Below are positions 5,224 through 44,381 of a DNA stretch of 64,000 bases, one piece after another. The position numbers and the translations under genes were made by a program. Position 1 is the stretch's first letter, and each line of letters begins with the position of its first letter. The notes under the pieces are model-generated. The model did no database searches, was not told where the DNA came from, and worked only from the letters and a program-made list of their open reading frames with translations. The stretch comes from Streptosporangium lutulentum (GTDB lineage Bacteria > Actinomycetota > Actinomycetes > Streptosporangiales > Streptosporangiaceae). The DNA lies in the NCBI RefSeq assembly GCF_030811455.1, contig NZ_JAUSQU010000001.1, forward strand, positions 9,610,001 to 9,674,000. Direction: 5' to 3'.

Positions 5224-6213
5224 ATGCCTCAGCCCAGGAAACGAGCGACGATCCGTGAGGTGGCGAAGGCCACGGGTCTCTCTCCGGCCGCGGTCTCGTA
5301 CGCCCTGCGCGGCATGCAGGTGTCGGAGGAGACCATCGAGCGGGTGCGTCTGGCCGCCGCGGAGCTCGGCTACGAGGCCGATCCCATCGCCCGCGCGCTG
5401 GCCAGCGGCCGGACCGGCATGATCGGCCTTCTGTGCGGCTCCCTCGAAGATCTGTGGCAGCAGGCCCTGGGGGTCGGCATCGGCCGGGCACTCAAGGACA
5501 ACGACCGCTACGCGTTGATCCTCGACGCCGCCGGCGACCCGATCCGGGAGCGCACGCTGGCCCGCCAGCTCCGTGACCAGCGGGTGGACGCGCTGATCGT
5601 GCAGCCGGTGAACCCGGCGGCGCCGTTCTGGGCCGAGCTGTGCGAGAGCCTGCCGGTGGTGTCGATCGGCGACGGGCTGGCCGGGGCGCGCACGGCGGGG
5701 GAGGTCGTCTTCGACAACCGGTCCGGAGTGACCCTGGCGCTGGAACACCTACGCGACCGGGGTCACGGGCGTCTCGTCCTCCTCACGCCGACCATGGCCA
5801 GCACTCCCGACCGGCCCGCCGACGTGCACTTCCTCGCCGAGGGCGGGCGGCTGGGGCTGGACATCGAGGCGGTCACCGCGCCCCAGGCGCTGGCGGCCGC
5901 CACGGAGGTCGCCCGCCAGATGCTCGTCGACGGGCACCGGGTCTTCTTCTGCTTCGCCGACTCGATCGCCTACGGGGTCTACGCGGCGGCGAGGGAGCAG
6001 GGGCTCCGGATCCCCGCCGACGTGTCCGTGATGGGCTACGACAACCATCCCATGTCGGGCCTGCTCACCCCCGGGCTCACCACGGTCGACTGGGACATCG
6101 ACGGCATCGTCCGCGCGGCCGTCCGCATGGTCGTGGCCGCGGCCGACGGCAACACCCGCCGCCGCCGTATGGTCCAGGCTCCACAGCTCCGCGAGCGTGG
6201 TTCGGTCGGCTGA
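5224..6213 (+). CDS. LacI family transcriptional regulator
   Basis: This 329-residue protein has the LacI headpiece at residues 7-55 (TIREVAKATGLSPAAVSYAL, then the hinge-helix region GYEADPIARALASGRT). A periplasmic-binding-type effector domain follows, with the usual VSVMGYDNHPMSGLLTPGLT signature near residue 270. The length is normal for the family. It is divergent from the amidohydrolase/cupin pair. Its last 465 bp overlap, on the opposite strand, the over-long C-terminus of the lyase homologue ending at 5749. Confidence 0.9.
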   Translation: MPQPRKRATIREVAKATGLSPAAVSYALRGMQVSEETIERVRLAAAELGYEADPIARALASGRTGMIGLLCGSLEDLWQQALGVGIGRALKDNDRYALILDAAGDPIRERTLARQLRDQRVDALIVQPVNPAAPFWAELCESLPVVSIGDGLAGARTAGEVVFDNRSGVTLALEHLRDRGHGRLVLLTPTMASTPDRPADVHFLAEGGRLGLDIEAVTAPQALAAATEVARQMLVDGHRVFFCFADSIAYGVYAAAREQGLRIPADVSVMGYDNHPMSGLLTPGLTTVDWDIDGIVRAAVRMVVAAADGNTRRRRMVQAPQLRERGSVG

Positions 6214-7620
6214 TCCGGCCCCGCCGTCCGCCTGGAGTCGTGACGGGCACCGGCGCGCGAGCCCGGACAGCAGCCCGCGTGCCGCGTCGATGTCGCCGTC
6301 CAGGGGGCGGTCGGCCATGGCGGGATCGAGGGGGAGGCCGCAGGGGAGACCGCGCTGGCGCAGAGCCCGCACGGCGGCGACCAGCTCGCAGGCCAGGATG
6401 ATCTCGAACGGTTCCACCGCGGCGAGGGCGGAGCGGGCCGCCTGCGGAGTGAAACTCGCGTGGTCCTCGGTTCCGAGCGAGAGCACGCCGGTGCCGAGGG
6501 TGACGGGCGAGGCCAGCTGGCGGAGAGCGGCCAGGGCGGAATGGGCGACGTATTCGAGGATCATCACCCCGGACAGCCCCGGGCGCTCGGCCAGGAACGG
6601 GAGCAGGCCCGTGTGGGCGGGGTCGGTCAGGGTGGTCAGCCTGGTGGCGCTCAGCGTCGCGGTCTGGACGAGCGCGGCCCTGAGGGCGTCGAGGGCGAGC
6701 GCCACCTGGGCCGAGTGGAAGTTGCCGTTGTGCCAGGCCCTGCCGTCCGCGATCAACGGGTTCTCCGGGGCCGCGTTGAGCTCCTCGGTGACGGCCCGTT
6801 CCGCGTGGTCGAGGATGTCGAGGACGGCGCCGTGGACCTGCGGAAAGGCGCGGTAGCCGTAGGGGTCCTGGACGTGCCGCGGGCTGGTGGCGCCGACCAG
6901 GGCGCGCAGCCCGGCCGCGACCGCCGCCTGGTTCGGACGGCGCTGCACGGCCTGCGCCAGCGGTTCGAGCGAGGCGTCGATCGCCCGGAAGGAATGGGCC
7001 GCGACGGCGGTGGTGGCGGTCAGCAGGAGCCTCAGGCGGTGACAGGCCAGGGCCGCGTCCGCGAGGGTCGCCGCGCCCGAACTGATGAAGGGCAGCGCGT
7101 CACCGGAGGTCAGCGCGAATCCGGGCACGTCGTCCGCGTCCCGCGCGTGCCCGTCGTGGAGGGACGGAGTCCAGGGAAGCTCGCCGAGGAGGCAGAGGGC
7201 GGTGGTGGCCAGAGCGGTGAGGTCACCGGTGCCGATGGCGCCGTAGCCGCGGATCGGGGGAGTGAGGCCGTGGTTGACGGCGGACGCGAGGACGGGCAGG
7301 AGGGCGGGATCGAGTCCGGAGCCGCCGGCGAGGAGCTGGTTGAGGCGGACGACGAGGGTGGCGCGGGCGCGGGACTCCTCGATCAGGGGGCCGGCGCCGC
7401 CCGCGTGGCTGCGGAGAAGATCGAGACCGGAGGCCTCGACCGGGACGTCCTTGTTGGCGCCCACACCGGTGGTCTGGCCGTACACCGGCCCGACGAGAGA
7501 GCCCGCCGTCCGCCAGGCGGCCTCGGCGCGCTCGGTGGAGCCCATCAGGATCCCGGAGCCGTGTGCCGCCCGGTGGACCTGCTCGCAGGTCAGGTGGGCG
7601 CCGTCAAGGACAACGACCAT
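5749..7620 (-). CDS. Aromatic amino acid lyase (HAL/PAL) homologue with altered MIO triad and antisense-derived tail
   Basis: Residues 1-469 match the histidine/phenylalanine ammonia-lyase fold: YGQTTGVG near 48, QDPYGYRAFPQVHGA, the GNFHS motif and LGTEDHASF are all present. The triad that cyclises to the electrophilic MIO cofactor, normally Ala-Ser-Gly, reads Gly130-Thr131-Gly132 in YGAIGTGDLTAL. Classical MIO chemistry is therefore doubtful. Residues 470-623 have no family counterpart and are simply the reverse complement of the lacI gene's 3' part, so an ancestral stop near 6213 appears lost. The start ATG lies 4 bp after the holin-like gene, suggesting cotranscription. Confidence 0.75.
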   Translation of the reverse strand: MVVVLDGAHLTCEQVHRAAHGSGILMGSTERAEAAWRTAGSLVGPVYGQTTGVGANKDVPVEASGLDLLRSHAGGAGPLIEESRARATLVVRLNQLLAGGSGLDPALLPVLASAVNHGLTPPIRGYGAIGTGDLTALATTALCLLGELPWTPSLHDGHARDADDVPGFALTSGDALPFISSGAATLADAALACHRLRLLLTATTAVAAHSFRAIDASLEPLAQAVQRRPNQAAVAAGLRALVGATSPRHVQDPYGYRAFPQVHGAVLDILDHAERAVTEELNAAPENPLIADGRAWHNGNFHSAQVALALDALRAALVQTATLSATRLTTLTDPAHTGLLPFLAERPGLSGVMILEYVAHSALAALRQLASPVTLGTGVLSLGTEDHASFTPQAARSALAAVEPFEIILACELVAAVRALRQRGLPCGLPLDPAMADRPLDGDIDAARGLLSGLARRCPSRLQADGGAGSADRTTLAELWSLDHTAAAGVAVGRGHDHADGRADDAVDVPVDRGEPGGEQARHGMVVVAHHGHVGGDPEPLLPRRRVDPVGDRVGEAEEDPVPVDEHLAGDLRGGRQRLGRGDRLDVQPQPPALGEEVHVGGPVGSAGHGRREEDETPVTPVA

Positions 7621-10977: not shown

Positions 10978-11646
10978 TCACGGGGGCGGGTCCGCCGAGC
11001 TCTGGAGGCCGGCCGTACGCCCTGACCCGAGCCGGCCGCTCCACCGTTCGGACAGCGTGTGCGGGACACCGATCACGTCGAGGACCTTTCCCGCCACGAA
11101 GTCGATCAGCTGCTGGACGTCGCGCGCCCCCGCGTAGAAGCCGGGCGAGGCGGGCAGGATCACCGCTCCCTCACCCGCGAGATCGGCCATCTGCTGCAGC
11201 GCGACGCGACGCAACGGCGTCTCGCGCGGTACGAGCACGAGCGGCCGGCGCTCCTTCAGCGTGACGTCCGCCGCGCGCTGGATCAGGTCCTTGCTCATGC
11301 CGGTCGCGACGCCGGCGACGACCGCCGTCGTGGCCGGCACGATGACCATCCCCCGGGCCGGGTACGTGCCGCTCGCCGGTCCCGCGGTGAAGTCGGCGGC
11401 CTTCCACACGACCATGTCACCCGGGTCGCGCCCGAGGAACGCCTTCACGTCGGTCCGCCACCGCGCCTCCCGGAACGACAGGCCGGTCTCGTCGAGCATC
11501 GTCAGGCGCGCCGCCTTGCTGACGATGAGGTCGATCGCCTCGCCCGCGTCGAGCAGCGCCCGGATGACCGCCGCCGCGTACGGGGTCCCGCTGGCTCCGG
11601 TGATTCCGACGACCCACGGCACCCGGAGTGTGGTGTGGTGATTCAT
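10978..11646 (-). CDS. ubiX: UbiX-like flavin prenyltransferase
   Basis: This protein of about 222 residues begins with the UbiX nucleotide-binding motif VVGITGASGTPYA. It has VIVPATTAVVAGVATGMSKD mid-chain and RPLVLVPRETPL near residue 145, both typical of the family. UbiX attaches a dimethylallyl group to FMN to make prenylated FMN, the cofactor that UbiD decarboxylases require. A ubiD gene lies 6.4 kb away in the same cluster. The start at 11646 is only 40 bp from the divergent GntR start. The C-terminal 20 residues are unusually Pro/Ser rich. Confidence 0.9.
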   Translation of the reverse strand: MNHHTTLRVPWVVGITGASGTPYAAAVIRALLDAGEAIDLIVSKAARLTMLDETGLSFREARWRTDVKAFLGRDPGDMVVWKAADFTAGPASGTYPARGMVIVPATTAVVAGVATGMSKDLIQRAADVTLKERRPLVLVPRETPLRRVALQQMADLAGEGAVILPASPGFYAGARDVQQLIDFVAGKVLDVIGVPHTLSERWSGRLGSGRTAGLQSSADPPP

Positions 11647-11686
11647 GGTGAGACCCTTCAGAAGAGCGACGAGGCGGTGGGTGGCG

Positions 11687-12436
11687 ATGACGACCGACGA
11701 GAGGGACCACGACCTCCGGCTGCGGGCCGGATCGTCGCCGACCGCCGGAGAGCGCGAGATCCTGAGGGTGCTCGGACGGGCCGAGGACGCCGGCGGCGTC
11801 GGCGCGCAGATCCTCGTCTCGCTCGGCACCGCGATCGTCGAGGGCCGGCTCAGGCCCGGAGACGATCTCAACTCGGTCGAACTCGCCAGGCGCTTCAACA
11901 GCAGCCGCACCCCCGTCCGCGAGGCGCTCCTGACCCTCGAACGCGAGGGCCTGGTCGAGATCGTGGCCCGCAAGCGGCCCCGGGTGCGCCGCCTGGAGAT
12001 CGCCGAGGTCCGTGAGATATACGAGCTGCGATCGGAGCTGTACGCCCTGGTGAGCCGGCGGATCGTCGCCCGGTGCGGCGCGCGGGACCTGGAGGTGTTC
12101 GGCCGGATCCAGGAACGGCTTGAGGACGCCGCGGCCGCCGAGGACCTGGACCGGTACTTCTGGCTCGTCGTCGAGTTCCGCAACACGGAGGCCCGCCTGG
12201 CCGGGAACGAGACCGTCCGCAACGTCCTCGACTCCGTCGGCATCCGAACCCTCCAGTTACGCCACTTCAGCCTGTCCCTGCCCGGACGGATCGCCACGTC
12301 GGTCGACGACCATCGCAGGCTGGTCCGGGCGTACGTCGAGGGGGAGGCCGAACTGGCGGCCGCCCTCACCCGGTCCATCGTCAGCCGCGGGCTCGCAGCG
12401 GTGGAGCGCTCGGGATGGACCGGCTCGCCCCGCTGA
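11687..12436 (+). CDS. GntR family regulator with FCD domain
   Basis: This 249-residue protein has a GntR winged helix at about residues 40-105 (LRPGDDLNSVELARRFNSSR, TPVREALLTLEREGLVE) and an all-helical FCD effector domain (EIYELRSELYALVSRRI). FCD regulators generally repress catabolic operons and respond to organic acids. The ATG at 11687 is chosen because an upstream GTG (11645) would overlap ubiX. It is divergent from ubiX and converges, with 56 bp overlap, on the amidohydrolase, so it is embedded in the catabolic cluster it probably controls. Palindromes at 19625 and 19795 are candidate targets. Confidence 0.88.
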   Translation: MTTDERDHDLRLRAGSSPTAGEREILRVLGRAEDAGGVGAQILVSLGTAIVEGRLRPGDDLNSVELARRFNSSRTPVREALLTLEREGLVEIVARKRPRVRRLEIAEVREIYELRSELYALVSRRIVARCGARDLEVFGRIQERLEDAAAAEDLDRYFWLVVEFRNTEARLAGNETVRNVLDSVGIRTLQLRHFSLSLPGRIATSVDDHRRLVRAYVEGEAELAAALTRSIVSRGLAAVERSGWTGSPR

Positions 12437-13427
12437 CCTCGCCGAGCAGGCCCGCCCCGCGAAGGACGGCCTCGCGCTCCGGCCGGTCCAGTCCCGCGGC
12501 GTCGAGCGCGCCGACCGGATGGTCGAGGCCCATCGCGAACGGGTAGTCGCTTCCCAGCACGACATGGTCCGGGCCCGCGAAGTCCAGGAGGTAGCGCAGG
12601 GCGCCGTCGTCGTGCACCACCGTGTCGAAGTAGAGCCGGTCCAGGAGCAGGCGAGGGCCGAACGCGCCGCGCGGGCGGACCGCCGGCGGGGCCGCGACGA
12701 AACCCCGGTCGAGCCTGCCGATCTGGTACGGGACGAAACCTCCCCCGTGGACCAGCATCACGCGCAGGCGCGGATGGCGTTCCAGGACCCCTCCGAGCAG
12801 GAAGGCGGCCGCCGCGAACGTCGTCTCCGACGGGTTGCCGACGAGGTTGTTGAGGAACAGCCGCCTGAGGCGCTCGGGCACGTCGGACCCGCCGGGGTGC
12901 ACGGTCACCGGGATGCCGAACTCCTCGACGGCGTCCCAGAAGACGTCGAGGCTCTCGTCGTCGAGCCCCAGGTCGTTGACGCGCGCACCGATCTGCACCG
13001 CCTCGTGGCCGAGGTCGGTGACGGCGCGGCGCAGCTCGCGTACGGCCAGGTCCGGCCGCTGCAACGGCACCGTCGCGGACGCCCGGAACCGATCGGGATG
13101 GGCCGCCGCGAGGGCGGCCACGGAGTCGTTCTGGACGCGGGCGAACCACGCCCCGTCCGGGCCGTCGAGATCGTAACCCGCGAGGTCCATCCACGACGAG
13201 ACCAGCTGGACGTCGATCCTCTCGGCGTCCATCCAGGACAGCCGGGCCTCCACGTCGCTGAGCCGGGGGAACAGCGGTTGCCCGCTCGGCCGCCCGGCCA
13301 CCTCGATCCGGGTGGCCGCCTGGTCTGTGACGAGCCGGACGCCGTGCCCGGCGCCCTCGTCGCGGATGCGTTCGACGGCGTCCACGCCTATGTGATGGGC
13401 GTGGAAGTCGATGGTCTTGGTGCTCAT
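12381..13427 (-). CDS. Amidohydrolase / ACMSD-like metal-dependent decarboxylase or hydrolase
   Basis: This 348-residue TIM barrel has the metal-binding FHAHH (His9/His11), VTVHPGG, VHGGGFVPYQIGRLDRG and the final Asp in LGSDYPFAMG. It resembles aminocarboxymuconate semialdehyde decarboxylases and related ring-carboxylate enzymes that act without redox change. It is the last gene of the minus-strand operon, and its ATG overlaps the previous stop (ATGA at 13424-13427). Whether it decarboxylates or opens a ring product cannot be read from the sequence. Confidence 0.82.
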   Translation of the reverse strand: MSTKTIDFHAHHIGVDAVERIRDEGAGHGVRLVTDQAATRIEVAGRPSGQPLFPRLSDVEARLSWMDAERIDVQLVSSWMDLAGYDLDGPDGAWFARVQNDSVAALAAAHPDRFRASATVPLQRPDLAVRELRRAVTDLGHEAVQIGARVNDLGLDDESLDVFWDAVEEFGIPVTVHPGGSDVPERLRRLFLNNLVGNPSETTFAAAAFLLGGVLERHPRLRVMLVHGGGFVPYQIGRLDRGFVAAPPAVRPRGAFGPRLLLDRLYFDTVVHDDGALRYLLDFAGPDHVVLGSDYPFAMGLDHPVGALDAAGLDRPEREAVLRGAGLLGEVSGASRSIPSAPPLRARG

Positions 13428-14257
13428 GAGTGACTCCTCTCGGCCGTTCGTTCCAGAAGATCCGTCAGCGCGCCGGCCACGGCCCCGGGGTTCTCCAGCG
13501 GGGTGAGGTGCCTGGTCCGGGGCACGACGACGGCGGCGCCGTCCCCGATGCGGTTCGCGAGGTCCCGCGCCATCGCCGGGGGCGTCGCCTGATCGTCCTC
13601 TCCCACCAGGACGGTCGCGGGATGAGCGATCATGGACGCGGACCGTCGCAGGTCCGCGGCGCCGAGCATCTCGCACGCCGCGTCGTAGCAGGCGAGGTCG
13701 TTGGCGGTGAAGACGCCGGCCAACCGGTTCATCAGCTCCGGCTCGGCCTCGCGGAACGCGTCTCCGAACCAGCGGGCCAGCTGGAGCGGGACCAGCGCCC
13801 CCAGGCCCTTCTCCCGTGCCGTCGCGGCGCGGCCGGCCCAGTCTCGCGGCGCGTCGGGTCCGTACCACGCCGTTGTGTCCACGAACAGCGCGGCCCGCGT
13901 GCGATGACGGTACCGGGAGGCGAACGCCTGCGCGGCGCAGCCGCCCATCGAGCACCCGGCGACGACGGCGTCCGTCCAGCCGTGGTGGTCGAGCAGGTCG
14001 GCGAGGTCGTCGGCGAACTGCCCGGTCGTGTACGGCCCGCCGGGACGGCCCGATCGTCCGTGTCCCCGGCAGTCATAGGTGATCATGTCGGCACGCCCGC
14101 CGAGGGCCTCGGTCACACCGGACCACAGCGACCGGTCCAGGGCCAGGCTGTGCGCGAAGACGATCCGTGGGGCCCCCTCGGCCGCCGGATGCCTGGTGAA
14201 GGACAGTGCGACGCCGTCCCGCGTGCGGGCCTCCCCGTGAACGGCCGGCATGGTCAT
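13424..14257 (-). CDS. Alpha/beta hydrolase, enol-lactonase-like
   Basis: This 277-residue alpha/beta hydrolase has its nucleophile Ser in AGCSMGGCAAQAF near residue 100, the oxyanion region VFAHSLALDRSLW near 35, an acid Asp in VGEDDQATPP and the catalytic His in VVPRTRHLTPLENP. The overall pattern is close to 3-oxoadipate enol-lactonases, so a lactone or lactam ring-opening role is likely. It overlaps both neighbours by ATGA, which implies tight translational coupling within the UbiD/molybdenum-hydroxylase operon. Confidence 0.85.
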   Translation of the reverse strand: MTMPAVHGEARTRDGVALSFTRHPAAEGAPRIVFAHSLALDRSLWSGVTEALGGRADMITYDCRGHGRSGRPGGPYTTGQFADDLADLLDHHGWTDAVVAGCSMGGCAAQAFASRYRHRTRAALFVDTTAWYGPDAPRDWAGRAATAREKGLGALVPLQLARWFGDAFREAEPELMNRLAGVFTANDLACYDAACEMLGAADLRRSASMIAHPATVLVGEDDQATPPAMARDLANRIGDGAAVVVPRTRHLTPLENPGAVAGALTDLLERTAERSHS

Positions 14258-15162
14258 GGGTCTGCTCCTTCCCCGCATGGCGGCTCCTCGGCGCGGCGGG
14301 CCGCCCTGGTCATGGCGCGGCGCGAGAACTCGGCGATCATGCGGGACTTGTACTCCGCGGAGCCCTTGACGTCGTTGTACGGGCGGGTGGCGGCCGCCGC
14401 GCGCCGGGCCACCTCGTCGATGAGCGCGCTGTCCACCACGTCGCCCCGCAGCTCGGTCAGGTCGACGGTGACCGGCCCGCCCTTCACCGACCCGACGGCG
14501 AGCGAGAGCCGCCGCGCCGCTCCGGCGTCGTCGAGCCGGACGACCGCGCCCACGTTCACGCAGGCGTACTCCCACACGCCGCGGACCAGGAACTTCTCGT
14601 ACGCCGAGCCGGTGCGATCCGGGGGCGTCAGGAGCCGGACGTCCTGGATGAGCTCGTCCTCGCCCAGCTCGTTCGCCTCCCCGACGCGGAGGATCCTCAG
14701 CGAGGAGGCGCTGCGCACCGTCAGGGTGGCGCCGGCGGCGGCGAGCGCCACGGGAGGGTCGTGGCCGTCGTCGCCCGCGGCGATGTTCCCGCCGAGCGTG
14801 ACCAGCCTTCGGACCCGGTCCGTCGCCACCGACCCGACCGCCTCCGTCACGATCGGCCACACCCGGGCGAGCCGCTCGTCGGCCTCGATCGTGCCGAGCC
14901 GGACGCCGGCGCCGATCGCGACGTGCTGGCCGGACCACGAGATCGCGCGGAGCTCGGGAAGGGAGCCGACCGAGACCAGCGCGGCCGGGCCGGGGCGGCG
15001 CCTGTCGTGGCGGCGCAGCGTGTGGCCCACGCCTCCGCCGAGCACGGCCGCGCCCTCGGCGGCGAGCAGGCGAAGCGCCTCGTCGAGGGAACGCGGTGTC
15101 AGCAGGACCGTCGGATCACGGGAGGTCCCGGGGAACGGGGGGCCGGGGTCGAGGGCCGTCAT
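14254..15162 (-). CDS. Molybdenum hydroxylase FAD-binding (medium) subunit
   Basis: This subunit of about 302 residues belongs to the CoxM/xanthine dehydrogenase family. VLGGGVGHTL near residue 42 and TLGGNIAAGDDGHDP near 122 contact FAD, and a CoxM C-terminal domain follows (YNDVKGSAEYKSRM). It passes electrons between the 2Fe-2S subunit and an external acceptor. It starts at ATG 15162 or GTG 15165, overlapping the large-subunit stop. The gene order small-large-medium with overlaps indicates one heterotrimer. Confidence 0.9.
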   Translation of the reverse strand: MTALDPGPPFPGTSRDPTVLLTPRSLDEALRLLAAEGAAVLGGGVGHTLRRHDRRRPGPAALVSVGSLPELRAISWSGQHVAIGAGVRLGTIEADERLARVWPIVTEAVGSVATDRVRRLVTLGGNIAAGDDGHDPPVALAAAGATLTVRSASSLRILRVGEANELGEDELIQDVRLLTPPDRTGSAYEKFLVRGVWEYACVNVGAVVRLDDAGAARRLSLAVGSVKGGPVTVDLTELRGDVVDSALIDEVARRAAAATRPYNDVKGSAEYKSRMIAEFSRRAMTRAARRAEEPPCGEGADP

Positions 15163-17534
15163 CACCGATCACCCTCCCGCCGGTCGGCGCGGGCCGCACA
15201 CCCCGGAAGAGCTTCTCCGCGGGGATCGGACCGGATGCCCCAGAAGATCTTCTCGGCCGTGATCGGCAGTTCGTGGACGCGCACGCCCACGGCGTCGGCC
15301 ACGGCGCTCGCCACGATCGACGGGACCGGGTCCAGGGCGATCTCGCCGACGCCCTTCGCGCCGAACGGTCCCGTCGGCTCGTAGGAGCCGGCGAACTCGA
15401 CGTGGAGCCTCGGCATGATCTGTGAGGTCGGCAGCTTGTAGTCGGCGAAGTTCGGACGCGCCGGCGCGCCGTCGGCCCAGTCGAGGCGTTCGGTGACGGC
15501 CATCCCGAGCCCCTGGGCGATCGCGCCCTCCACCTGGCCCTCGGCGAGGGGCGGGTTGAGGACGGTCCCGCAGTCGACCACCGCGGCCAGCTCCAGCACG
15601 GTCACGGCGCCGGTGGCGGGATCGACCTCGACCTCGGCGGCCTCGGCGGCGAAGGTGTAGGCGCCGGACTCGTTGCCGTACCTGACCTCGTCGGGAAACT
15701 CCGAGGGGTTGTCGAACGAGCCGAGGCCGACGATCGGTTCGCCGCCCGGCCGGTAGAGCTCGGCGCGGACGACCACCCCGACCGGCAGCCGGACCGGTTC
15801 GTCCCCGCCCGGCGCGGTCGGGGCGCACACGAGGCCGTTCTCGACCCAGAGCTCCGGCTTCGACCGCCCGAGCTGCCGTGCCGCGGCGGCCAGCAGCCGC
15901 TCGCACGCCTGCTCGGCGGCGCGCTTCACGGCGTTGCCGGCGACGTAGGTCACGCGGCTCGCCAGCGCGCCCAGCGCGTGGGTCGTCAGATCGGTGTCGG
16001 GGCGCGAGACCGTGACGTCCGTGACCGCGAGGCCGAGTTCGGCGGCCGCGATCTGCGCGAGGGTGGTGCGCGCTCCCGTGCCGATCTCGCCCTCGCCGGT
16101 GATGACGACGGCGCGTCCGTCCTCGGTCAGCCGGACGATCGCCGAGCTTCCGTCGTAGTCGCCGAAGCTGCGCCGGCCGGAGACGTGGACGCTGACCCCC
16201 ATCGCGAGGCCGTGGTGGGGCGTGGGAGCGGCCCGCTTCTCGTACCAGCCGATCGCGTCGGCCGCCTTGCGGATGCACTGCTTGAGCTCGCAGCTGCCGA
16301 TCCTGTGGTTGTGGAGGGAGACGTCGCCCTCCTCGACGGCGTTGAGCAGGAGCAGATCGGGCATCTCGATGCCGAGCCTGGCCGCCGCGAGGTCCCACGC
16401 CTGGCCGACGGCCCAGTCCGCGGAGGGGTTGCCGAACCCCCGGAACGCGCCGGTGGGAACGAGGTTGGTGTAGACGAGCCGCGAGCGCGCCCGCACCGCG
16501 CGGTAGGCGAAGAGCGCGTCGTGCCGTACGGTCGCCGCGCCGAGGACGGCCAGTGACTTGCCGGTGTAGGCGCCGTTGTCGGCGATGAGGTCGAGGTCCT
16601 TCGCGGTCACCAGGCCGTCCGAGGTGAACCCGAGCCGGACCCGGCAGCGCATCGGGGTGCGGGGACGGCCGGCGAGGAACTCCTCCTCGCGGGTGTTGAG
16701 GAGCTGCACCGGGCGGCCCGTCCTCCTCGCCAGGATCGCGCAGATCACCGAGGTGTTGTCGTCGCCCGACTTGCCCCCGAAGCCTCCGCCGACCTCGGTC
16801 TGGACGACGCGCACGCTGCGCAACGGCAGACCGAGCGCGGTCGCGTAGCGCTGGCGGGCGAGGAACGGCGTCTGGGTGTTCACCCACAACGTGACCCGGT
16901 CCTGTGACCATTCGGCGGTGCAGCCGATCGTCTCGATCGAGCCGTGCCACTGCCGCGCGCTCTGCCAGACGCCCTCGACGATCACGTCGCTGCGCGCGAA
17001 CCACTCGTCGGCCCCGCCCCGGTCGAAGGAGAACTCGTGCGCGACGTTGCCCGGCGCGTCGTCGTGGACGAGCGGCGCGCCCTCGGCGAGCGCCTCGTCC
17101 AGGCCGAGTACGGCGGGCAGCACCTCGTACTCCACCGAGACGAGCTCGGCCGCGCGCCGCGCGGTCTCGGCGTCGGCCGCCGCGACGGCCGCGACCTCGT
17201 CACCGACGTAGCGGACCCGTCCGACCGCCAGCGGGTAGAGATCGGGGCGGAAGGCCCCCCATCGGATCCGCGCGGTGTCGGCGCCCGTGACGACGGCGTG
17301 AACGCCGGGCATGCGCTCGGCCCGCGAGGTGTCGATTCTCACGACGCGGGCACTCGCGTGCGGCGAGCGGACCACGGCCCCGTGAAGCATCCGGGGCAGC
17401 CGCACGTCGCCGGCGTAGACGGCCCGACCGGTGACCTTCTCCGCCGCGTCGACGCGTTCGACCGCGCTTCCGATCAGCGGAGGCGTGGCGTGTTCGGACA
17501 GCAGGTCGACGACGGGATGTTCCGTGATCGGCAT
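15162..17534 (-). CDS. Molybdenum hydroxylase large (molybdopterin-binding) subunit
   Basis: This 790-residue CoxL/XdhB-type subunit carries the TEVGGGFGGKSGDDNT molybdopterin motif near residue 265, GAFRGFGNPSADWAV near 370, GEGEIGTGARTTLAQ and the C-terminal GAKGVGEIALDP. The last contains the base glutamate of hydroxylases. It lacks the AYRCSFR loop that marks CO dehydrogenase, so it is a ring or aldehyde hydroxylase. It overlaps the 2Fe-2S gene upstream and the FAD subunit gene downstream. The neighbouring UbiD and hydrolases point to an aromatic or heteroaromatic substrate. Confidence 0.92.
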   Translation of the reverse strand: MPITEHPVVDLLSEHATPPLIGSAVERVDAAEKVTGRAVYAGDVRLPRMLHGAVVRSPHASARVVRIDTSRAERMPGVHAVVTGADTARIRWGAFRPDLYPLAVGRVRYVGDEVAAVAAADAETARRAAELVSVEYEVLPAVLGLDEALAEGAPLVHDDAPGNVAHEFSFDRGGADEWFARSDVIVEGVWQSARQWHGSIETIGCTAEWSQDRVTLWVNTQTPFLARQRYATALGLPLRSVRVVQTEVGGGFGGKSGDDNTSVICAILARRTGRPVQLLNTREEEFLAGRPRTPMRCRVRLGFTSDGLVTAKDLDLIADNGAYTGKSLAVLGAATVRHDALFAYRAVRARSRLVYTNLVPTGAFRGFGNPSADWAVGQAWDLAAARLGIEMPDLLLLNAVEEGDVSLHNHRIGSCELKQCIRKAADAIGWYEKRAAPTPHHGLAMGVSVHVSGRRSFGDYDGSSAIVRLTEDGRAVVITGEGEIGTGARTTLAQIAAAELGLAVTDVTVSRPDTDLTTHALGALASRVTYVAGNAVKRAAEQACERLLAAAARQLGRSKPELWVENGLVCAPTAPGGDEPVRLPVGVVVRAELYRPGGEPIVGLGSFDNPSEFPDEVRYGNESGAYTFAAEAAEVEVDPATGAVTVLELAAVVDCGTVLNPPLAEGQVEGAIAQGLGMAVTERLDWADGAPARPNFADYKLPTSQIMPRLHVEFAGSYEPTGPFGAKGVGEIALDPVPSIVASAVADAVGVRVHELPITAEKIFWGIRSDPRGEALPGCAARADRREGDR

Positions 17535-18040
17535 CAGCGCCTCCTCTCGGCAGGCGTCGTCGCTCCGGCGCGCTTCCCCTGGGTGGCCACGGCCTCCCGC
17601 GCCGAGTCGAGGATCTTCACATATCCGGTGCAACGGCAGTAGTTGCCGTCGACGGTCCGCCGGATCCGTTCGTCGTCCGGTTCCGGGTCCTCGTCGAGCA
17701 GCGCCCGGAGCGCCATCACATGGCCCGGCGTGCAGAAGCCGCACTGCAGGCCCGCGCGTCTCACGAACGCGGCCTGGACCGGGTCGAGGCCCTCCGGGCC
17801 GTTCAGGTCCTCGATGGTTCGCACCTCACGGCCTTCGAGCAGGCCGATCATCAGCAGGCAGGCGGGGACGGCCTCACCGTCGACGATGACCGTGCACGCT
17901 CCGCAGTAGCCGATGGCGCAGCCCGACTTCGTGCCCGTGAGACCGAGGTCGTCACGCAGGACGTCGAGCAGCGTCGCGGCCGGATCCCGGACCTGGATCT
18001 CCACGTCCTCGTGATTGAGCCTGAGGCGCAGGCCGTTCAT
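17534..18040 (-). CDS. Molybdenum hydroxylase 2Fe-2S (small) subunit
   Basis: This 168-residue protein has two 2Fe-2S clusters. The plant-ferredoxin type is at Cys41, Cys46, Cys49 and Cys61 (SGCAIGYCGACT...PAC); the helical cluster is at Cys100, Cys103, Cys135 and Cys137 (LQCGFCTPGH, YCRCTGY). All eight ligands are present. The start overlaps the ubiD stop (ATGA at 18037-18040). It belongs to the small-large-medium hydroxylase complex encoded immediately downstream. Confidence 0.93.
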   Translation of the reverse strand: MNGLRLRLNHEDVEIQVRDPAATLLDVLRDDLGLTGTKSGCAIGYCGACTVIVDGEAVPACLLMIGLLEGREVRTIEDLNGPEGLDPVQAAFVRRAGLQCGFCTPGHVMALRALLDEDPEPDDERIRRTVDGNYCRCTGYVKILDSAREAVATQGKRAGATTPAERRR

Positions 18041-19494
18041 CGGGAGCCTCCCAGTATGTCGGGCCAGCGTCGTACGACGTGGTCGATCAGGTCCCTGCCG
18101 GACTCGGCCACGCGGGGGAAGTCCGGCAGCCGGTTCCAGGGACGGCACGCGTCGATCACGGCGCGGGTGTTGAACGGGGGGAGACCGGGCGCGCGGAGCG
18201 GATCGACCCGGCTGCCCCACGTCTGGCGCATGATCTCGATGTCCTCGGCCGGGTCGGTGCGGGTGCAGACGGCCCACATCACGTCGTCGAGGCTGCGGAA
18301 GTCGACGTCGGCGTCCACGACGACCACGAACTTGTTCATGTAGGCGGCGGAGGGAAGCTGCGAGGCGAGGTAGGCGGCCTGGCGCGCGTGGCCCGCGTAC
18401 CGCTGGTGGAGGGCCACCGCGAGCAACTGGCGGCCGCCGCCGGCCTCGTGCGCCCACACCCCTTCCACACCCGGAAGGCCCGCCCTGACGAGCGCGTCCT
18501 GGATCATCGCCGACTTCATCACGCTGCGCATGTAGGAGTAGTCGTGCGGTGGTTTGCCGGGAGGGGCGCCGAGCTGGATCGGGTCGTCGCGGTGGTAGAC
18601 CCGCTCGACGTCCATGGTGAGCACCGGCTCGATCCCGCCGCTGTAGTAGCCGGTCCATTCGCCGAACGGCCCCTCCTGCTCCCGCCGGTCCGGATACAGC
18701 CAGCCCTCGACCGCGAGCTCGCCGCGCGCGGGAATCGGCAGACCGGTCACCTCGCCGCGGATCACGTCGACCGGCCGCCCCATCACCGCACCGGCGTATT
18801 CGAGCTCCGACAGTCCCGCCGGCACCTCGGTGCCGGCGACGACGAGCAGCAGCGGATCGTGCCCGAGCGACGCGGTGACGGGAGCGCGTCCTTCCTTGTC
18901 GAACCACTCCCGGACGTGCGCGGCCCCGTGCTTGCCCGCCTCGATGTTGACGCTCACGGCCCGTCCGTCGTTCTGCACCTGCATCCGGTAGGCCCCCGCG
19001 TTGAGCGTGCCGGTGGCCGGGTCGGTCGTGAACACGGCGCACCCGGTGCCGATGTATCGGCCGCCGTCCGCCTCATGCCATCTCGGCACGGGGAAGTCGA
19101 GCAGGTTCACGTCGCCCGACGTGATGACGTTCTCGCAGACCGGCCCGGAGCCGACCTCCCGGACGGGGTATCTCGCCGCGTCGGCGATCCACTCGTTCGG
19201 GCGGTTGCGCAGCGCCTCGACCAGCCCGCGGTCGTCGAGCGAGGTGCCCAGCCGGAGGGTCATGCCCAGCCTGCGGGCGTTCGCCATGCTGGCCGTGAGG
19301 ACCCGCGGGCCCCTGCCGTAGCCCACGATGTCGTCGAACAGCAGCGCCGGGGGCGACGGGCGTCTGTAGTTCACCTCCGAAGCGGCGCCGATCTCCTTGT
19401 CCCAGTGGGCGCCGGTGATGGTCCGGACCTCTCCGAGTTCGCCGGCGAGTTCGAGCCAGCTACGAAGGTCGTCCACCTCCTCAAGGGATCCCAT
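18037..19494 (-). CDS. ubiD: UbiD family (de)carboxylase
   Basis: This 485-residue UbiD homologue has an N-terminal DLRSWLELAGELGEV and the central YRMQVQNDGRAVSVNI. The prenylated-FMN/active-site segment is QEGPFGEWTGYYSGG, followed by the conserved C-terminal oligomerisation region. These enzymes use prFMN and Mn/K to decarboxylate aromatic, heteroaromatic or unsaturated acids reversibly. It is the first gene of a six-gene overlapping operon, and the dedicated ubiX is at 10978. Substrate specificity cannot be inferred. Confidence 0.92.
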   Translation of the reverse strand: MGSLEEVDDLRSWLELAGELGEVRTITGAHWDKEIGAASEVNYRRPSPPALLFDDIVGYGRGPRVLTASMANARRLGMTLRLGTSLDDRGLVEALRNRPNEWIADAARYPVREVGSGPVCENVITSGDVNLLDFPVPRWHEADGGRYIGTGCAVFTTDPATGTLNAGAYRMQVQNDGRAVSVNIEAGKHGAAHVREWFDKEGRAPVTASLGHDPLLLVVAGTEVPAGLSELEYAGAVMGRPVDVIRGEVTGLPIPARGELAVEGWLYPDRREQEGPFGEWTGYYSGGIEPVLTMDVERVYHRDDPIQLGAPPGKPPHDYSYMRSVMKSAMIQDALVRAGLPGVEGVWAHEAGGGRQLLAVALHQRYAGHARQAAYLASQLPSAAYMNKFVVVVDADVDFRSLDDVMWAVCTRTDPAEDIEIMRQTWGSRVDPLRAPGLPPFNTRAVIDACRPWNRLPDFPRVAESGRDLIDHVVRRWPDILGGSR

Positions 19495-19918: not shown

Positions 19919-20497
19919 ATGGCGCGGGACGCGGATCGAACCAGGAGGAGACTGCTGGAGGCCGCGACCGTGGAATTCGCCGCGCTCGGCATCGCGGGAG
20001 CCCGGGTGGATCGCATCGCCGAGGCCGCCGGATGCAACAAGGCGATGATCTACGCCTACTTCGGCAACAAGGATCGGCTCTTCGACGCGGTCTTCACCGC
20101 GCAGGTCGCCGACTTCCTCGATCAGGTGCACCTCGACGCGTCCGACCTGCCCGGTTACGCCGGACGGCTGTTCGATCGCTACGAGGACCACCCCGAGACC
20201 CTGCGACTGGCCACCTGGTACCGGCTGGAGCGACCTCGGGGAGCCCCCCTGCAGGCCGTCGTCTCGTCCAACCGGGGGAAACTCGAGGGGCTGGAGCAGG
20301 CCCAGCGGGAGGGCGTCCTGCCCGGTCACTACACCCCGGTCGAGCTCCTGACGCTGGTCCTGTCGATATCCACGGCATGGGCGTCGATGCCCCCTGAGCT
20401 GGGGGCGAGCGCCGCAGGTGATCGCGACCGCCGCAGGCACACCGTCGTGGACGCCGTACGGCGGCTGCTGGTGGAGAACCGCCCGGTGCGGTCGTAG
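19919..20497 (+). CDS. TetR family transcriptional regulator
   Basis: This 192-residue protein has the TetR HTH at residues 8-53 (RRRLLEAATVEFAALGIAG, IAEAAGCNKAMIYAYFGNKD). The C-terminal ligand domain resembles TetR_C_33-type regulators (LPGYAGRLFDRYEDHPETLR). It is divergent from ubiD and upstream of the LPMO gene on the same strand. An inverted repeat lies 20 bp before the start. The target gene is not clear; autoregulation is likely. Confidence 0.9.
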   Translation: MARDADRTRRRLLEAATVEFAALGIAGARVDRIAEAAGCNKAMIYAYFGNKDRLFDAVFTAQVADFLDQVHLDASDLPGYAGRLFDRYEDHPETLRLATWYRLERPRGAPLQAVVSSNRGKLEGLEQAQREGVLPGHYTPVELLTLVLSISTAWASMPPELGASAAGDRDRRRHTVVDAVRRLLVENRPVRS

Positions 20498-20750: not shown

Positions 20751-21617
20751 GTGCACCTGCGACACAAGGTGGCCGCCACGGCCGCCACGCTCATGGTCGG
20801 GTCCCTGCTGGCCCTGCTGCCGTCCACTCCGGCGGTCTCTCACGGAACGATGTCCAATCCCCCCAGCCGCGTCTACGTCTGCAAGAACGAGAATCCGGAA
20901 AACCCCACGTCGGCGGCTTGCAAGGCCGCTGTGGCGGCAGGCGGCACCCAGGCGTTCTACGACTGGAACGAGGTGTCCCGGCTCGACGCGGGCGGGCAGC
21001 ACCGTCAGATCATCCCGGACGGCAAGCTGTGCAGCGGCGCGCGTGACAAGTATCGGGGGCTCGACCTCGCCAGGGCCGACTGGCCCGCCACGCGGGTCTC
21101 CCCGGGGCCGCTGACGATCACCTATCACGCGACCGCGCCCCACGCGAACAGCAACTTCGAGTTCTACATCACCAAGCAGGGCTGGAACCCGACCCAGCCG
21201 CTCCGCTGGTCGGACCTGGAACTCCTCAGGACGTTCAACAACCAGAACCCCACCACATTCACCAACTGGACGATCAACCTCCCGCAGCGCAGCGGACGCC
21301 AGATCATCTACTCGATCTGGCAGCGCGTGGTGGGCAGCGCGGAGGCCTTCTACACCTGTTCCGACGTGGACTTCGGCGGCGGCACCAACCCGAACCCGAA
21401 CCCGACGCCCACCCCGACCCCCACGGTGACCCCGACCCCGACCCCGACGCCCACCCCGACGACGCCGCAGCCGGGCGGAACCTGGAGGGCGGGCGCCGCC
21501 TACACGGCCGGCACGCAGGTGACCTACGGCGGCCTGACCTACCGGTGTCTGCAGCCGCACACCGCGATAGCGGGCTGGGAGCCGCCGAACGTCCCCGCGC
21601 TGTGGCAGCGCGTCTGA
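20751..21617 (+). CDS. Secreted AA10 lytic polysaccharide monooxygenase with C-terminal carbohydrate-binding module
   Basis: A Sec signal peptide of 30 residues ends ...STPAVS, leaving His31 as the mature N-terminus. With His131 (APHANSNFEFYIT) it forms the copper histidine brace of AA10 enzymes. The catalytic domain runs to about residue 195. A Pro-Thr linker of about 35 residues and a CBM5/12-like module (WRAGAAYTAGTQVTYGGLTY, WEPPNVPALWQRV) follow, so chitin is the likely substrate. The GTG at 20751 has AGGAGG seven to eight bases upstream. An A/T-rich CCTTAGTAAGG leader lies near 20660. Its last codons and stop are tandemly repeated downstream. Confidence 0.92.
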   Translation: MHLRHKVAATAATLMVGSLLALLPSTPAVSHGTMSNPPSRVYVCKNENPENPTSAACKAAVAAGGTQAFYDWNEVSRLDAGGQHRQIIPDGKLCSGARDKYRGLDLARADWPATRVSPGPLTITYHATAPHANSNFEFYITKQGWNPTQPLRWSDLELLRTFNNQNPTTFTNWTINLPQRSGRQIIYSIWQRVVGSAEAFYTCSDVDFGGGTNPNPNPTPTPTPTVTPTPTPTPTPTTPQPGGTWRAGAAYTAGTQVTYGGLTYRCLQPHTAIAGWEPPNVPALWQRV

Positions 21618-37118: not shown

Positions 37119-38120
37119 TCAGATCACGTAGGACTCGTCGATCGACGCGGGGAAGAGGTCGTCGGGGGTGAGCAGGCGCTCGCACACCCGCTGCTCGTGG
37201 GCGTAACGGAGGAACGCCTCCAGGGTGGTGCGGTTCGGTGCCGTTCCGTACGGCCACAGATCGCGCCCGAAGACCCGCTCCGCCAGGCGGGCGCGGTCCG
37301 GCCCCCACGGCAGGGGGAAGTGCGGGGCGGTCGGGTCGAGCAACCTGGCCAGACTCCGGTCCTTGGCGGCGGTGAACGCCGTGACGAGGTTCTGAGCCAC
37401 CCACGGATGCCGCTCGTACACCTCGCGACGCAGCACCACCAGGTGCATGATCGGGAAGATGCCGGTCCTTCGGTAGTACTCCTCCTCGACGGCGGGGGAG
37501 TCGTCGAAGAGCTGGACGATGCGCCCCGAGCGATCCTCGAACCCGGCGGGCGGATGAGGCACCATGATCGCGTCCAGCTCGCCGTCGAGCAGCAGCCGGT
37601 TCAGCGACCGTTGCCGTTCGGGGGTGACCTTGACGCCGTCGGGCAGGCCGGCGGGCAGCGTCTCGATGCGGCCGGGCTCGTTGATCCCGCCCTGTACCCA
37701 TTCGACACCGGTCAGATCGACGCCGAATTCGTGCTGCAGGAGCGCTCGCTGGTAGACGGTCGCGGTCACCGTCCATTCCGGGATGCCGATCCGCGCCCCG
37801 GCGAGCTCCGCCGGATCGTTCACGGGGCCGTCGGCGCGAACGAAGATGCCGGAGTGCCGGAAGGACCGGGAGGGGAACACGGGCAGCCCGACGAGGGAGT
37901 CGTCGCCCCGGGCGCGCAGCGAGGAGTACTTGCCCAGCGACATCTCCGAGATGTCCCACTCCCGGAACTTGGTGAACCTGAAGAAGATCTCCTCGACCTC
38001 GAGAAGGAGGCAGGTCAGGTCGACGCCGTTCACCGGCACGCGCCCTGACACCAGATCGCGAACCTGGTCGGAATCATTGATCGCGAGGGTGAGGTGGACG
38101 TTCGATCGAGACGAACTCAC
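37119..38120 (-). CDS. 4,5-dihydroxyphthalate decarboxylase-like protein (periplasmic-binding fold)
   Basis: This 333-residue protein has no signal peptide and shows the Pht5 pattern: LAINDSDQVRDLVSGRVPVN at the start, FFRFTKFREWDISEMSLGKY, IGIPEWTVTATVYQRALLQH and GELDAIMVPHPP. Relatives decarboxylate 4,5-dihydroxyphthalate, or are unassigned. The GTG at 38120 overlaps the SDR stop (GTGA), so the two are coupled. Placement beside an SDR and oxidoreductases suggests a step on a cyclic acid, but the substrate is not known. Confidence 0.8.
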   Translation of the reverse strand: MSSSRSNVHLTLAINDSDQVRDLVSGRVPVNGVDLTCLLLEVEEIFFRFTKFREWDISEMSLGKYSSLRARGDDSLVGLPVFPSRSFRHSGIFVRADGPVNDPAELAGARIGIPEWTVTATVYQRALLQHEFGVDLTGVEWVQGGINEPGRIETLPAGLPDGVKVTPERQRSLNRLLLDGELDAIMVPHPPAGFEDRSGRIVQLFDDSPAVEEEYYRRTGIFPIMHLVVLRREVYERHPWVAQNLVTAFTAAKDRSLARLLDPTAPHFPLPWGPDRARLAERVFGRDLWPYGTAPNRTTLEAFLRYAHEQRVCERLLTPDDLFPASIDESYVI

Positions 38121-38911
38121 AGGAAATTCATCCCCCCGTCGATGACGATGCTCTGTCCCGTGATCGTGCGCGCGGCGTCGGACGCGAGGAAGACCGCCGT
38201 ACCGGCGATGTCGGCCGATTGCAGGCGCCGGTGCAGAGCCTGGCCGGCGATGATCTGCTCGGCCTGGCCGGGTTTGACGGAGTCGCGGGGGATGCCGGTG
38301 TCCACCGAACCCGGCATCAGGGCGTTGACGGTGACATCGGCGGCGCCCAGCTCTCGCGCCAGCGATCGCGTCAGGCCCACCACCCCGGCCTTGGACGCCA
38401 CATAGTGCATGTAGTTCGGCCGTCCCTGGAGCACCGCCGCCGAGGAGACGTTGATGATGCTGCCACCGCGCCGGGCCCGCATGTGCCCGCCGACCGCACG
38501 GCAGCAGAGGAACACGCCGGTCAGGTTGACGTCGATGACCTGCCGCCACTCGGCCGCGCTGATCTCGTCGAACGGCTTCATCACGATGGTCGAGAAGATC
38601 GCGGCGTTGTTCACAAGCGTGTCGACCCGCCCGTAGGTCTCAAGCGTCAGGCGGAGCAACGCCTCGACGCTCTGTTCGTCGGCGACGTCGACGGTCACCG
38701 CTGTGGCGTCGTGACCCTCTTTGCGCAGCTCGGCCGCGGTGGATTCGGCGCCGTCGGTGTCGCGGTCGGCGACGACGACGCGGGATCCGGATTCGGCGAA
38801 GGCGCGTGCGAAGGTGCGGCCGATGCCCTGGGCCGCGCCGGTGATGACGCAGACCTTGCCTGCCGGGTCGGGCCCGGATGTCGTCCGGGGAGGGAGAGCA
38901 GAGTGCTCCAT
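38117..38911 (-). CDS. Short-chain dehydrogenase/reductase
   Basis: This 264-residue classical SDR has the cofactor motif VITGAAQGIGRTFA near residue 23 and NNAAIFS near 100. Its catalytic Ser is in INVSSAAVLQG, followed by YMHYVASKAG with the YxxxK pair. Asp in VVVADRDTDG after the second strand favours NAD. It is first in a two-gene minus-strand operon with the Pht5-like decarboxylase and divergent from the ALDH operon. Confidence 0.9.
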   Translation of the reverse strand: MEHSALPPRTTSGPDPAGKVCVITGAAQGIGRTFARAFAESGSRVVVADRDTDGAESTAAELRKEGHDATAVTVDVADEQSVEALLRLTLETYGRVDTLVNNAAIFSTIVMKPFDEISAAEWRQVIDVNLTGVFLCCRAVGGHMRARRGGSIINVSSAAVLQGRPNYMHYVASKAGVVGLTRSLARELGAADVTVNALMPGSVDTGIPRDSVKPGQAEQIIAGQALHRRLQSADIAGTAVFLASDAARTITGQSIVIDGGMNFL

Positions 38912-39029
38912 GGAGTCCACCGGGTGTCTCCTATCTCTTCGTGACTCGCCGCCGCGCAAAGGGTCGATTTGACCCCAAATGGTCAAGAAAGGGATGTCTT
39001 GACGGTGGGCGACGTGCGTGCCTAACATC

Positions 39030-39073
39030 CATGGTGTTCTGCATGACGGTCTACCGTTCTCCACCGTAGAACG
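39030..39073. promoter_or_regulatory. Operator-like elements in the SDR/ALDH divergent promoter
   Basis: CCATGGTGTTCTGCA (39029-39043) matches the sequence upstream of the IclR gene. Directly after it CGTTCT-7-AGAACG (39055-39073) forms an inverted repeat nested with TCTAC/GTAGA. These lie 130-170 bp before the ALDH start. Confidence 0.5.
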
Positions 39074-39203
39074 CAAGACTTCAGGCGAAAACACGTCGCC
39101 AGACCACTGGCCGGACGGGCCGGCGACGGCCCGGCTCTCTCGCCGGTGCGACGCGGCACCCAGGACATCTCAGCTGATCGTGAGTGGGAGGAGTGACACG
39201 CGG

Positions 39204-44380: not shown

Positions 44381-44381
44381 A

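Follow-up and report, generated by a model that had tools for sequence, protein, structure and literature searches.

Decarboxylases of the UbiD family and molybdenum (Mo) hydroxylases are both already known from heteroaromatic catabolism, and the hmf clusters for furandicarboxylate and 2-furoate (HmfABCDEF, Psf) pair the two by way of coenzyme A (CoA) esters. In the accessible part of the published account, these clusters join a UbiD and its prenylated flavin mononucleotide (prFMN) helper with a Mo hydroxylase, a maturation factor and a putative ring hydrolase (PMC12064950). The phd operon of Mycolicibacterium fortuitum consists of the three genes phdA, phdB and phdC, according to the accessible part of PMC13040415. 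Here we describe an eight-gene cluster of Streptosporangium lutulentum, located in a stretch of 64,000 nucleotides of contig NZ_JAUSQU010000001.1 (the window, to which the positions refer). It encodes UbiD, UbiX, a three-subunit Mo hydroxylase, a PcaD-related alpha/beta hydrolase, an ACMSD-like amidohydrolase and a GntR/FCD regulator. The cluster is a conserved, functionally coherent unit. With slightly more than even confidence we give it a catabolic reading: the operon would break down a small heteroaromatic carboxylic acid, possibly a dicarboxylic one, by decarboxylation, hydroxylation and then hydrolysis; a mechanism of this class is likely.

A conserved gene cluster and a UbiD clade linked to a molybdenum hydroxylase

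Six genes on the minus strand, in the order ubiD, 2Fe-2S, Mo, FAD, hydrolase and amidohydrolase, form one run (Table 1). The first-pass annotation had every junction overlapping by one to four bases, and the gene models bear this out with overlaps of 4, 1, 4, 4 and 4 bases, the third being 1 base with the ATG start of the FAD gene. The GntR/FCD and ubiX genes, described there as attached, do adjoin the run. The regulator gene, however, is on the plus strand between the two, convergent with the amidohydrolase gene (56-base overlap of the tails) and divergent from ubiX, which therefore stands beside the run and not within it. The regulator is likely to act locally. In the 10.64 Mb host genome, profile searches gave a single match to PF01977 (UbiD) and a single match to TIGR00421 (UbiX); the pair thus seems to be the only prFMN system of the genome. 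A Pfam search of the eight gene products found neither a CoA ligase nor an oxygenase, in line with what had been said of the run.

A scan of 84,980 genomes, one per species, with six peptides of the window UbiD gave 84 relatives, and the best 80 of the 84, at 79 loci (labelled L002 and onwards), were analysed; the names of many neighbourhood genes are assignments by eye that go by the first residues. The nearest relative is found in Streptosporangium subroseum (L002, 91% identity). The six-gene order with the reversed GntR gene behind it recurs at 13 of the 15 other loci with a UbiD 81-91% identical, and the run is therefore not a product of chance. The search for this gene order, proposed as a check, thus gave a positive answer: all six genes are present at 12 of the 15 loci, the GntR gene in 13/13 clusters and, within the stretches fetched, ubiX in 6/13. 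In 10 of the 13 clusters, ubiD is immediately preceded by an ABC importer (ATPase, permease and NMT1-type binding protein in Pfam). Within the stretches fetched, a second GntR gene follows ubiD in 11 and XdhC is found downstream in six. Alongside the window cluster there is no importer and no XdhC; an XdhC homolog (61%) is encoded elsewhere in the genome.

The ratio of nonsynonymous to synonymous substitution rates (dN/dS) was 0.09-0.69 for the eight window genes against six loci of the close group (L002, L003, L006, L010, L013 and L024; UbiX is absent from L013). UbiX and UbiD gave the lowest values, and the amidohydrolase and FAD genes, compared with S. subroseum, the highest. In that species the hydrolase (L002:15569-16324), FAD and amidohydrolase genes have raised values of 0.46-0.69, and its cluster may be decaying; an aldehyde dehydrogenase gene is placed between TetR and ubiD. 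In Streptomyces sp. 8L the order at L005:10001-14977 is importer, ubiD, second GntR, hydrolase, amidohydrolase and GntR. Rid-family homologs, 33% identical to the one of L081 (below), occur near the cluster end in L010 (20643-21023) and near the lone UbiD of L009 (16705-17094), each beside an enolase-superfamily-like gene (by eye).

A close UbiD is present in 2 of 16 genomes of the genus and, at E <= 1e-100, in 2 of 394 of the class, the window's own genome counted in both; the other UbiD of the class count has just 44% identity. In the phylogenetic tree, the UbiDs of the window and S. subroseum are nested among those of Streptomycetaceae, which suggests that the cluster was acquired.

The clade of the window UbiD covers Actinomycetota, Chloroflexota and Acidobacteriota (support 100/99, 18 clade rows), and its sister is a UbiD from a plasmid of Paraburkholderia caribensis MBA4 (L081, support 98/97). 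The tree had 53 rows, among them a single, very long outgroup, and was rooted at the midpoint; it included 18 of the 24 clade members, the window counted. A Mo hydroxylase lies within 6 kb at 20 of the 23 clade loci (window not counted) but at 2 of the 56 other UbiD loci. For loci with at least 3 kb on both sides the numbers are 20/23 and 1/29 (Fisher p = 2.7e-10, shared ancestry ignored). A PcaD-like hydrolase (at least 33% identity, within 6.5 kb) was found at 19/23 clade loci and 0/56 others, with hydrolases of the window, L017 and L081 as queries, that is, from the clade itself and its sister. This linkage contrasts with the divergence of the Mo hydroxylases, whose three types have Mo subunits only 26-35% identical. 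The idea of a unit for (de)carboxylation, Mo hydroxylation and hydrolysis thus gains support from the close relatives and from the whole clade.

UbiDs at 57-61% identity occur in other gene arrangements. The order CoxG, FAD, Mo, Fe-S, hydrolase, ubiD is found in Micromonospora, Streptomyces and Amycolatopsis (L016-L019, L021, L023), Fe-S, Mo, FAD, ubiD in a metagenome-assembled genome of Chloroflexota (L020, FAD named by eye) and ubiD, TctA-like, Fe-S, Mo in one of Acidobacteriota (L022, TctA by eye). In the Paraburkholderia sister the order is hydrolase, FAD, Mo, Fe-S, MFS, Rid, XdhC and, farther on, ubiD and CoxG (several names by eye). L020 has a succinate-semialdehyde-dehydrogenase-like gene near ubiD on the opposite strand (594.6 against 730 bits), which fits a route through a nitrogen or an oxygen ring alike. 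On a plasmid of Ancylobacter polymorphus ZM13 (L106:12473-20300), genes for RidA, LysR, hydrolase, an SRPBCC (CoxG-like) protein, FAD, Mo, Fe-S and MFS stand together; no UbiD is annotated in the 27 kb examined, and its Mo subunit shares 69% identity with the one in L081. Beside its cluster of the second group, Streptomyces sp. SBT349 encodes a further UbiD together with a carbon-nitrogen hydrolase and a DUF2848 protein (L016:12917-16673).

Active sites and relationships of the enzymes

The Pfam and NCBIfam assignments agree with the family names given in the first-pass annotation. The UbiD has the PF01977 domain (1e-59) and the Arg-Glu-Glu/Asp triad of the family as R170, E274 and E279; R170 and E279 are invariant in 52 sequences and E274 is kept in at least 90%. 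Its TIGR00148 score of 244.7 bits is slightly below the cut-off of 244.85, and UbiX (Flavoprotein, 2.3e-38) exceeds that of TIGR00421 (161 against 108.9 bits). The AlphaFold model of UbiD (mean pLDDT 91.5) has as its top structure match 7pda, the phenazine-1-carboxylate decarboxylase PhdA of M. fortuitum. This is the closest solved UbiD with 35% identity, compared with 27% for HudA and 26% for HmfF; the match score is 291 bits for PhdA and 135 for HmfF.

In HudA, N318 touches the ring ligand and corresponds to HmfF H297, which the authors consider key for furan specificity in the part of PMC7976604 that is accessible. In the HMMER alignment, this position is Y319 in the window UbiD and Ala in PhdA, and R323 is likewise aligned to Ala of PhdA. 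The window UbiD does not fall in the HmfF subfamily, given Tyr319 at the H297 position and the 135 bits to HmfF. Tyr in place of the Ala of PhdA suggests a substrate smaller than phenazine; with 35% identity and this replacement, phenazine-1-carboxylate itself is an unlikely substrate. The motif D318-Y319-S320-Y321 (DYSY) is found in 19/19 UbiDs when the Mo-linked clade is taken together with Paraburkholderia, and in 0/33 others (alignment A1); the 19 include L008 and L009, neither of which has a Mo hydroxylase within 6 kb. Judged by the aligned sequences, the clade probably shares a class of substrates that differ from those of HudA and HmfF and are smaller than phenazine.

A role of UbiD and UbiX in menaquinone or ubiquinone synthesis is unlikely, as the UbiD scores far below the cut-offs of the pathway models (191.6 against 495.9 and 146.7 against 788 bits) and a close UbiD is restricted to 2/16 genomes of the genus. 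Phthalate was rejected as well: an EbN1 plasmid UbiD (43%) is encoded near a UbiX-UbiD-CoA-transferase set, but has EMAR in place of DYSY, and no Mo hydroxylase is annotated in the stretch examined. A hudA-like UbiD gene is present in a Pseudomonas phage record (PV425003.1:57201-58433), which is possibly host DNA.

The large subunit of the Mo hydroxylase has the Pfam domains MoCoBD_1/2 and Ald_Xan_dh_C, the FAD subunit FAD_binding_5 and CO_deh_flav_C, and the small subunit Fer2 and Fer2_2. The best match of the large subunit in both NCBIfam and the PDB is the alpha subunit of 4-hydroxybenzoyl-CoA reductase (4-HBCR), but it is below the curated cut-offs for CoxL, xanthine dehydrogenase and 4-HBCR. 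Form I aerobic CO dehydrogenase has the CoxL active-site motif AYxCSFR; the window protein has GAFRGFG instead and scores 278 against 991 bits (TIGR02416). For xanthine dehydrogenase, the cut-offs of XdhA and PucD are missed with 505.2 against 780 and 413.4 against 783.7 bits. Motifs and scores thus led to the rejection of CO dehydrogenase, xanthine dehydrogenase and 4-HBCR as identities.

The alpha/beta hydrolase (Abhydrolase_1) has PcaDC and PcaD as its top NCBIfam models, both below cut-off (195.7 against 255.9 bits for PcaD, TIGR02427), and PcaD is its closest named and solved relative. It belongs with hydrolases of Rhizobium (52% identity), Neorhizobium (49%) and Paraburkholderia (42%). 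The first of these, from R. leguminosarum, adjoins a homolog of 6-hydroxynicotinate 3-monooxygenase (1.6e-103), a decarboxylative hydroxylase that replaces COOH with OH in one O2-dependent step. By analogy, the UbiD and Mo hydroxylase may together achieve with water the same net change that the flavin enzyme achieves with O2. In Neorhizobium petrolearium the hydrolase lies in a region of about 26 kb that also encodes UbiX, a UbiD from a different subfamily, two Mo subunits, CoxG, Fe-S, FAD and modABC. A Rut-like pyrimidine route was rejected: the hydrolase scores 49 against 238.5 bits for RutD, and the rhizobial LLM protein had no RutA match among the four families listed (limit 1e-12).

The amidohydrolase (Amidohydro_2 in Pfam, no match in NCBIfam) has kept His9, His11, His177, Asp294, His228 and Arg239 of ACMSD. 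Two further residues, Arg51 and Trp194, are aligned to Gln and Asn (Table 1). According to the accessible part of PMC11650718, the former set includes the zinc ligands, while Arg51 and Trp194 bind the carboxylates of the substrate. The replacements make a different substrate probable, and the protein is best described as a putative ACMSD-type metal enzyme, either decarboxylase or hydrolase. It had been assigned to hydrolytic ring opening; the family and the zinc ligands stand, but it may be a decarboxylase instead. A Burkholderia pyrrocinia locus, which we take to be picolinate-like, was rejected as a parallel, the common part being just a 37% identical amidohydrolase.

Table 1. Features of the cluster and the divergent TetR gene, with positions in the window
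Feature	Position	Strand	Remarks
ubiD, prFMN-dependent (de)carboxylase	18037-19494	-	485 amino acids; gene model, Pfam, NCBIfam, alignment, structure match
2Fe-2S small subunit, Mo hydroxylase	17534-18040	-	168 amino acids; eight Cys (41, 46, 49, 61, 100, 103, 135, 137)
Mo-pterin large subunit	15162-17534	-	790 amino acids; motifs KGVGE (727, Glu731) and AFRGFG (363)
FAD subunit	14254-15165	-	about 303 amino acids; GTG start (ATG start gives 15162); two Cys only
alpha/beta hydrolase, PcaD-related	13424-14257	-	277 amino acids; nucleophile elbow GCSMGG (Ser103); His250 in RHLTP
ACMSD-like amidohydrolase (PF04909)	12381-13427	-	348 amino acids; H9, H11, H177, H227, D294, R238 match ACMSD; Q50, N194 at Arg51/Trp194 positions
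GntR/FCD regulator	11687-12436	+	convergent with the six-gene run; in 13/13 related clusters; Pfam GntR, FCD
ubiX flavin prenyltransferase	10978-11646	-	222 amino acids; in 6/13 related clusters
TetR-family regulator	19919-20497	+	divergent from ubiD; ortholog among related loci only in S. subroseum (L002)

The TetR gene is probably not part of the conserved unit. Elsewhere in the window there are an aromatic amino acid lyase family protein (5749-7620, minus strand; 623 amino acids, PF00221, 303 bits) and a lytic polysaccharide monooxygenase, LPMO_10 with CBM5/12 (20751-21617). A second catabolic-looking run (37119-48976) comprises a zinc alcohol dehydrogenase, FAD_binding_2 and FAD_binding_3 enzymes and SDR-like, aldehyde-dehydrogenase-like and MFS-like genes (the latter three by eye). 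At 59477-63168 a Rieske ring-hydroxylating oxygenase alpha subunit and a GMC oxidoreductase flank an IclR-like gene (IclR by eye).

A candidate route and its alternatives

In the catabolic reading, UbiD with prFMN made by UbiX would remove a ring carboxylate, and the Mo hydroxylase would add an oxygen derived from water to the ring carbon beside the heteroatom. The hydroxylated ring would tautomerise to a lactone or lactam that the PcaD-like hydrolase opens. The ACMSD-like enzyme would remove the remaining beta-carboxylate, or hydrolyse an amide, and the chain would enter central metabolism. In relatives, an ABC importer and an XdhC-type maturation factor for the Mo enzyme are added to the set. 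From the observed genes, their order and conservation, the catalytic residues and the clade-wide association of UbiD and hydroxylase, we infer the order of steps, all of the chemistry and the substrate.

Several points weigh against this reading. It is drawn from gene content and comparison, which makes the substrate class a proposal. The association test is blind to shared ancestry, and the loci, the best 80, were found through six peptides of the window UbiD itself. Among close relatives, Streptomyces sp. 8L has kept ubiD, hydrolase and amidohydrolase but all three Mo genes are missing; this could be a natural deletion or an assembly gap, and the locus could reveal the role of the remaining enzymes on their own. 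The close UbiDs of L008 and L009 stand alone, the Mo gene of L011 is split over two reading frames, ubiX is missing from the fetched stretches of 7/13 clusters and the S. subroseum hydrolase lacks an internal segment (251 instead of 277 amino acids). In the wider clade, no PcaD-like hydrolase was found in L020 and L022 at the cut-off used, and an ACMSD-like gene beside ubiD was found in the close group only, which places it outside the wider core.

The absence of CoA chemistry also has its limits. In the Paraburkholderia sister, a CoA-ligase-like (270.7 bits, cut-off 476) and a LysR-like gene on the opposite strand, followed by a thioesterase-like gene (by eye), lie between XdhC and ubiD. CoA-transferase-like genes (by eye) are found farther away in L017 and L019. 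In a tblastn search with the ligase-like protein, neither the window nor L002-L024 yielded a homolog at E <= 1e-8; the protein is present in four of all loci searched, itself included. A CoA-free route is thus supported for the group of the window, but not for the wider core or the sister, and because of the sister's ligase-like gene our confidence in the catabolic reading was set slightly lower.

The first-pass annotation, which had proposed an O2-independent attack on a heteroaromatic or phenolic acid, is as a whole partly supported. Independence of O2 refers to the proposed chemistry only, as the hosts include aerobes such as Streptomyces and Streptosporangium. The heteroaromatic part agrees with PhdA as nearest solved UbiD, while the phenolic part gained no support, because Mo hydroxylases of the xanthine-oxidase family classically hydroxylate carbons adjoining a ring heteroatom.

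The recurring pair of UbiD and Mo hydroxylase has its own UbiD clade with a signature motif, in three phyla and Paraburkholderia. It would represent a general oxygen-independent exchange of a ring carboxylate for a hydroxyl group with ring opening, in which CoA activation is absent from the group of the window. It offers a small, defined gene set and a substrate-pocket motif for finding the substrate. UbiD enzymes of new specificity are sought for biocatalytic carboxylation. No paper on this gene set was found in the open-access literature, which does not prove that there is none.

A narrower version of the catabolic reading, with a pyrrole, imidazole or pyridine acid as substrate, is tentative. 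The hydroxylated ring would be a lactam or imide, and opening would give an enamine or amide that is then deaminated. Isochorismatase-fold proteins in the sister clusters L017 and L019 and in the rhizobial L104, L105 and L108 point in this direction. The L017 protein is nearest, in the PDB, to N-carbamoylsarcosine amidase and maleamate-type amidases (3uao/3ot4 and 4l07 presumably being maleamate amidase); those of L104, L105 and L108 are 47-49% identical to it, and a cut-off piece in L016 49%. Rid-family proteins are encoded in L081, with a score below the cut-off, and in L106, with one above it; the hydrolase's neighbour in Rhizobium is 6-hydroxynicotinate 3-monooxygenase-like, and the substrates of PhdA and HudA are N-heteroaromatics. 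However, amidase and Rid genes are both absent from the window cluster, no such amidase was found in the fetched stretches of L018, L021 and L023, the two UbiDs seen in rhizobia (L103, L105) belong to a different subfamily and some of the neighbour genes may serve other pathways.

The most specific form of this nitrogen route, a CoA-free and oxygenase-free conversion of a pyrrole dicarboxylate (such as the 2,4- or 2,3-isomer) to succinate semialdehyde, is improbable as it stands. UbiD would take off the alpha-carboxylate, the Mo hydroxylase would yield a hydroxypyrrole lactam and the PcaD-like enzyme would open it to aminomethylene-succinate. From this the ACMSD-like enzyme would remove the carboxylate beta to the enamine, a geometry as in the substrate of ACMSD. 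Pyrrole dicarboxylates of this kind are released on melanin oxidation. If the route were true, UbiD and Mo hydroxylase would be the water-driven counterpart of a flavin-dependent decarboxylative hydroxylase, and those sister clusters that carry amidase or Rid genes would follow the same logic.

A furan version of the catabolic reading, from furan-2,5-dicarboxylate to 2-oxoglutarate without CoA, is unlikely. UbiD would make 2-furoate and the Mo hydroxylase 5-hydroxy-2-furoate, the keto tautomer of which is the enol-lactone of 2-oxoglutarate; the PcaD-like enzyme would open this to 2-oxoglutarate. Lactone chemistry suits a hydrolase whose closest named and solved relative is PcaD, since the substrate of PcaD, 3-oxoadipate enol-lactone, is just one CH2 longer, and the hmf clusters combine the same kinds of enzymes. 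On the other hand, the UbiD is much nearer PhdA than HmfF and has Tyr, not His, at H297 of HmfF, the route leaves no task for the ACMSD-like enzyme, and the amidase and Rid genes of the sister clusters point to nitrogen.

It is also improbable that the cluster is not catabolic at all, and serves the tailoring or detoxification of a secondary metabolite or protection against an aromatic-acid antibiotic. The sporadic occurrence in the genus and the nesting among Streptomycetaceae, which make acquisition probable, would suit this explanation, but the eight genes include no biosynthetic core gene, importer and XdhC are attached in relatives, and sister clusters encode MFS proteins resembling the aromatic-acid/H+ symport family (below cut-off). 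A reductive system like 4-HBCR that feeds benzoyl-CoA metabolism is hardly credible, even with the alpha subunit as best match of the large subunit: all three subunits are far under the curated cut-offs (alpha 571.7 against 994.6 bits), the cluster has no CoA ligase, and the FAD subunit, with two Cys only, has no 4Fe-4S insert, the defining trait of 4-HBCR.

Comparison with described systems

PcaD acts as 3-oxoadipate enol-lactonase, whereas the eight genes of the window include no ortho-cleavage genes. Compared with ACMSD, the zinc ligands and the positions of His228 and Arg239 are kept, but both carboxylate-binding residues are replaced. The pyrrole-2-carboxylate decarboxylase HudA has in common with the window UbiD the family, the aligned Arg-Glu-Glu residues and, on our reading, a heteroaromatic acid as substrate; the identity is however low, and N318 is replaced by Tyr. 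PhdA, PhdB and PhdC include the UbiD that is nearest in sequence and fold, with a UbiX and a heteroaromatic acid substrate. The phd operon differs in having no Mo hydroxylase, and with Y319 and R323 in place of Ala the pocket probably differs too. In the 6-hydroxynicotinate 3-monooxygenase routes, a single flavin- and O2-dependent step stands in place of UbiD and Mo hydroxylase.

The first-pass annotation had set the run apart from the HmfABCDEF route. This is right for the absence of CoA enzymes and for a UbiD nearer PhdA, but the hmf clusters likewise pair UbiD, Mo hydroxylase and ring hydrolase, as far as the accessible text of PMC12064950 describes them. Among its eight products the window cluster has no CoA ligase (HmfD) or CoA-ester hydrolase (HmfE), although a ligase elsewhere in the genome is possible. 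It also has a UbiD of a different subfamily, an additional ACMSD-like enzyme and a GntR regulator. As two defining features of hmf, CoA enzymes in the cluster and a UbiD of HmfF type, are lacking, the window cluster is a variant that resembles hmf in logic and not a member of it.

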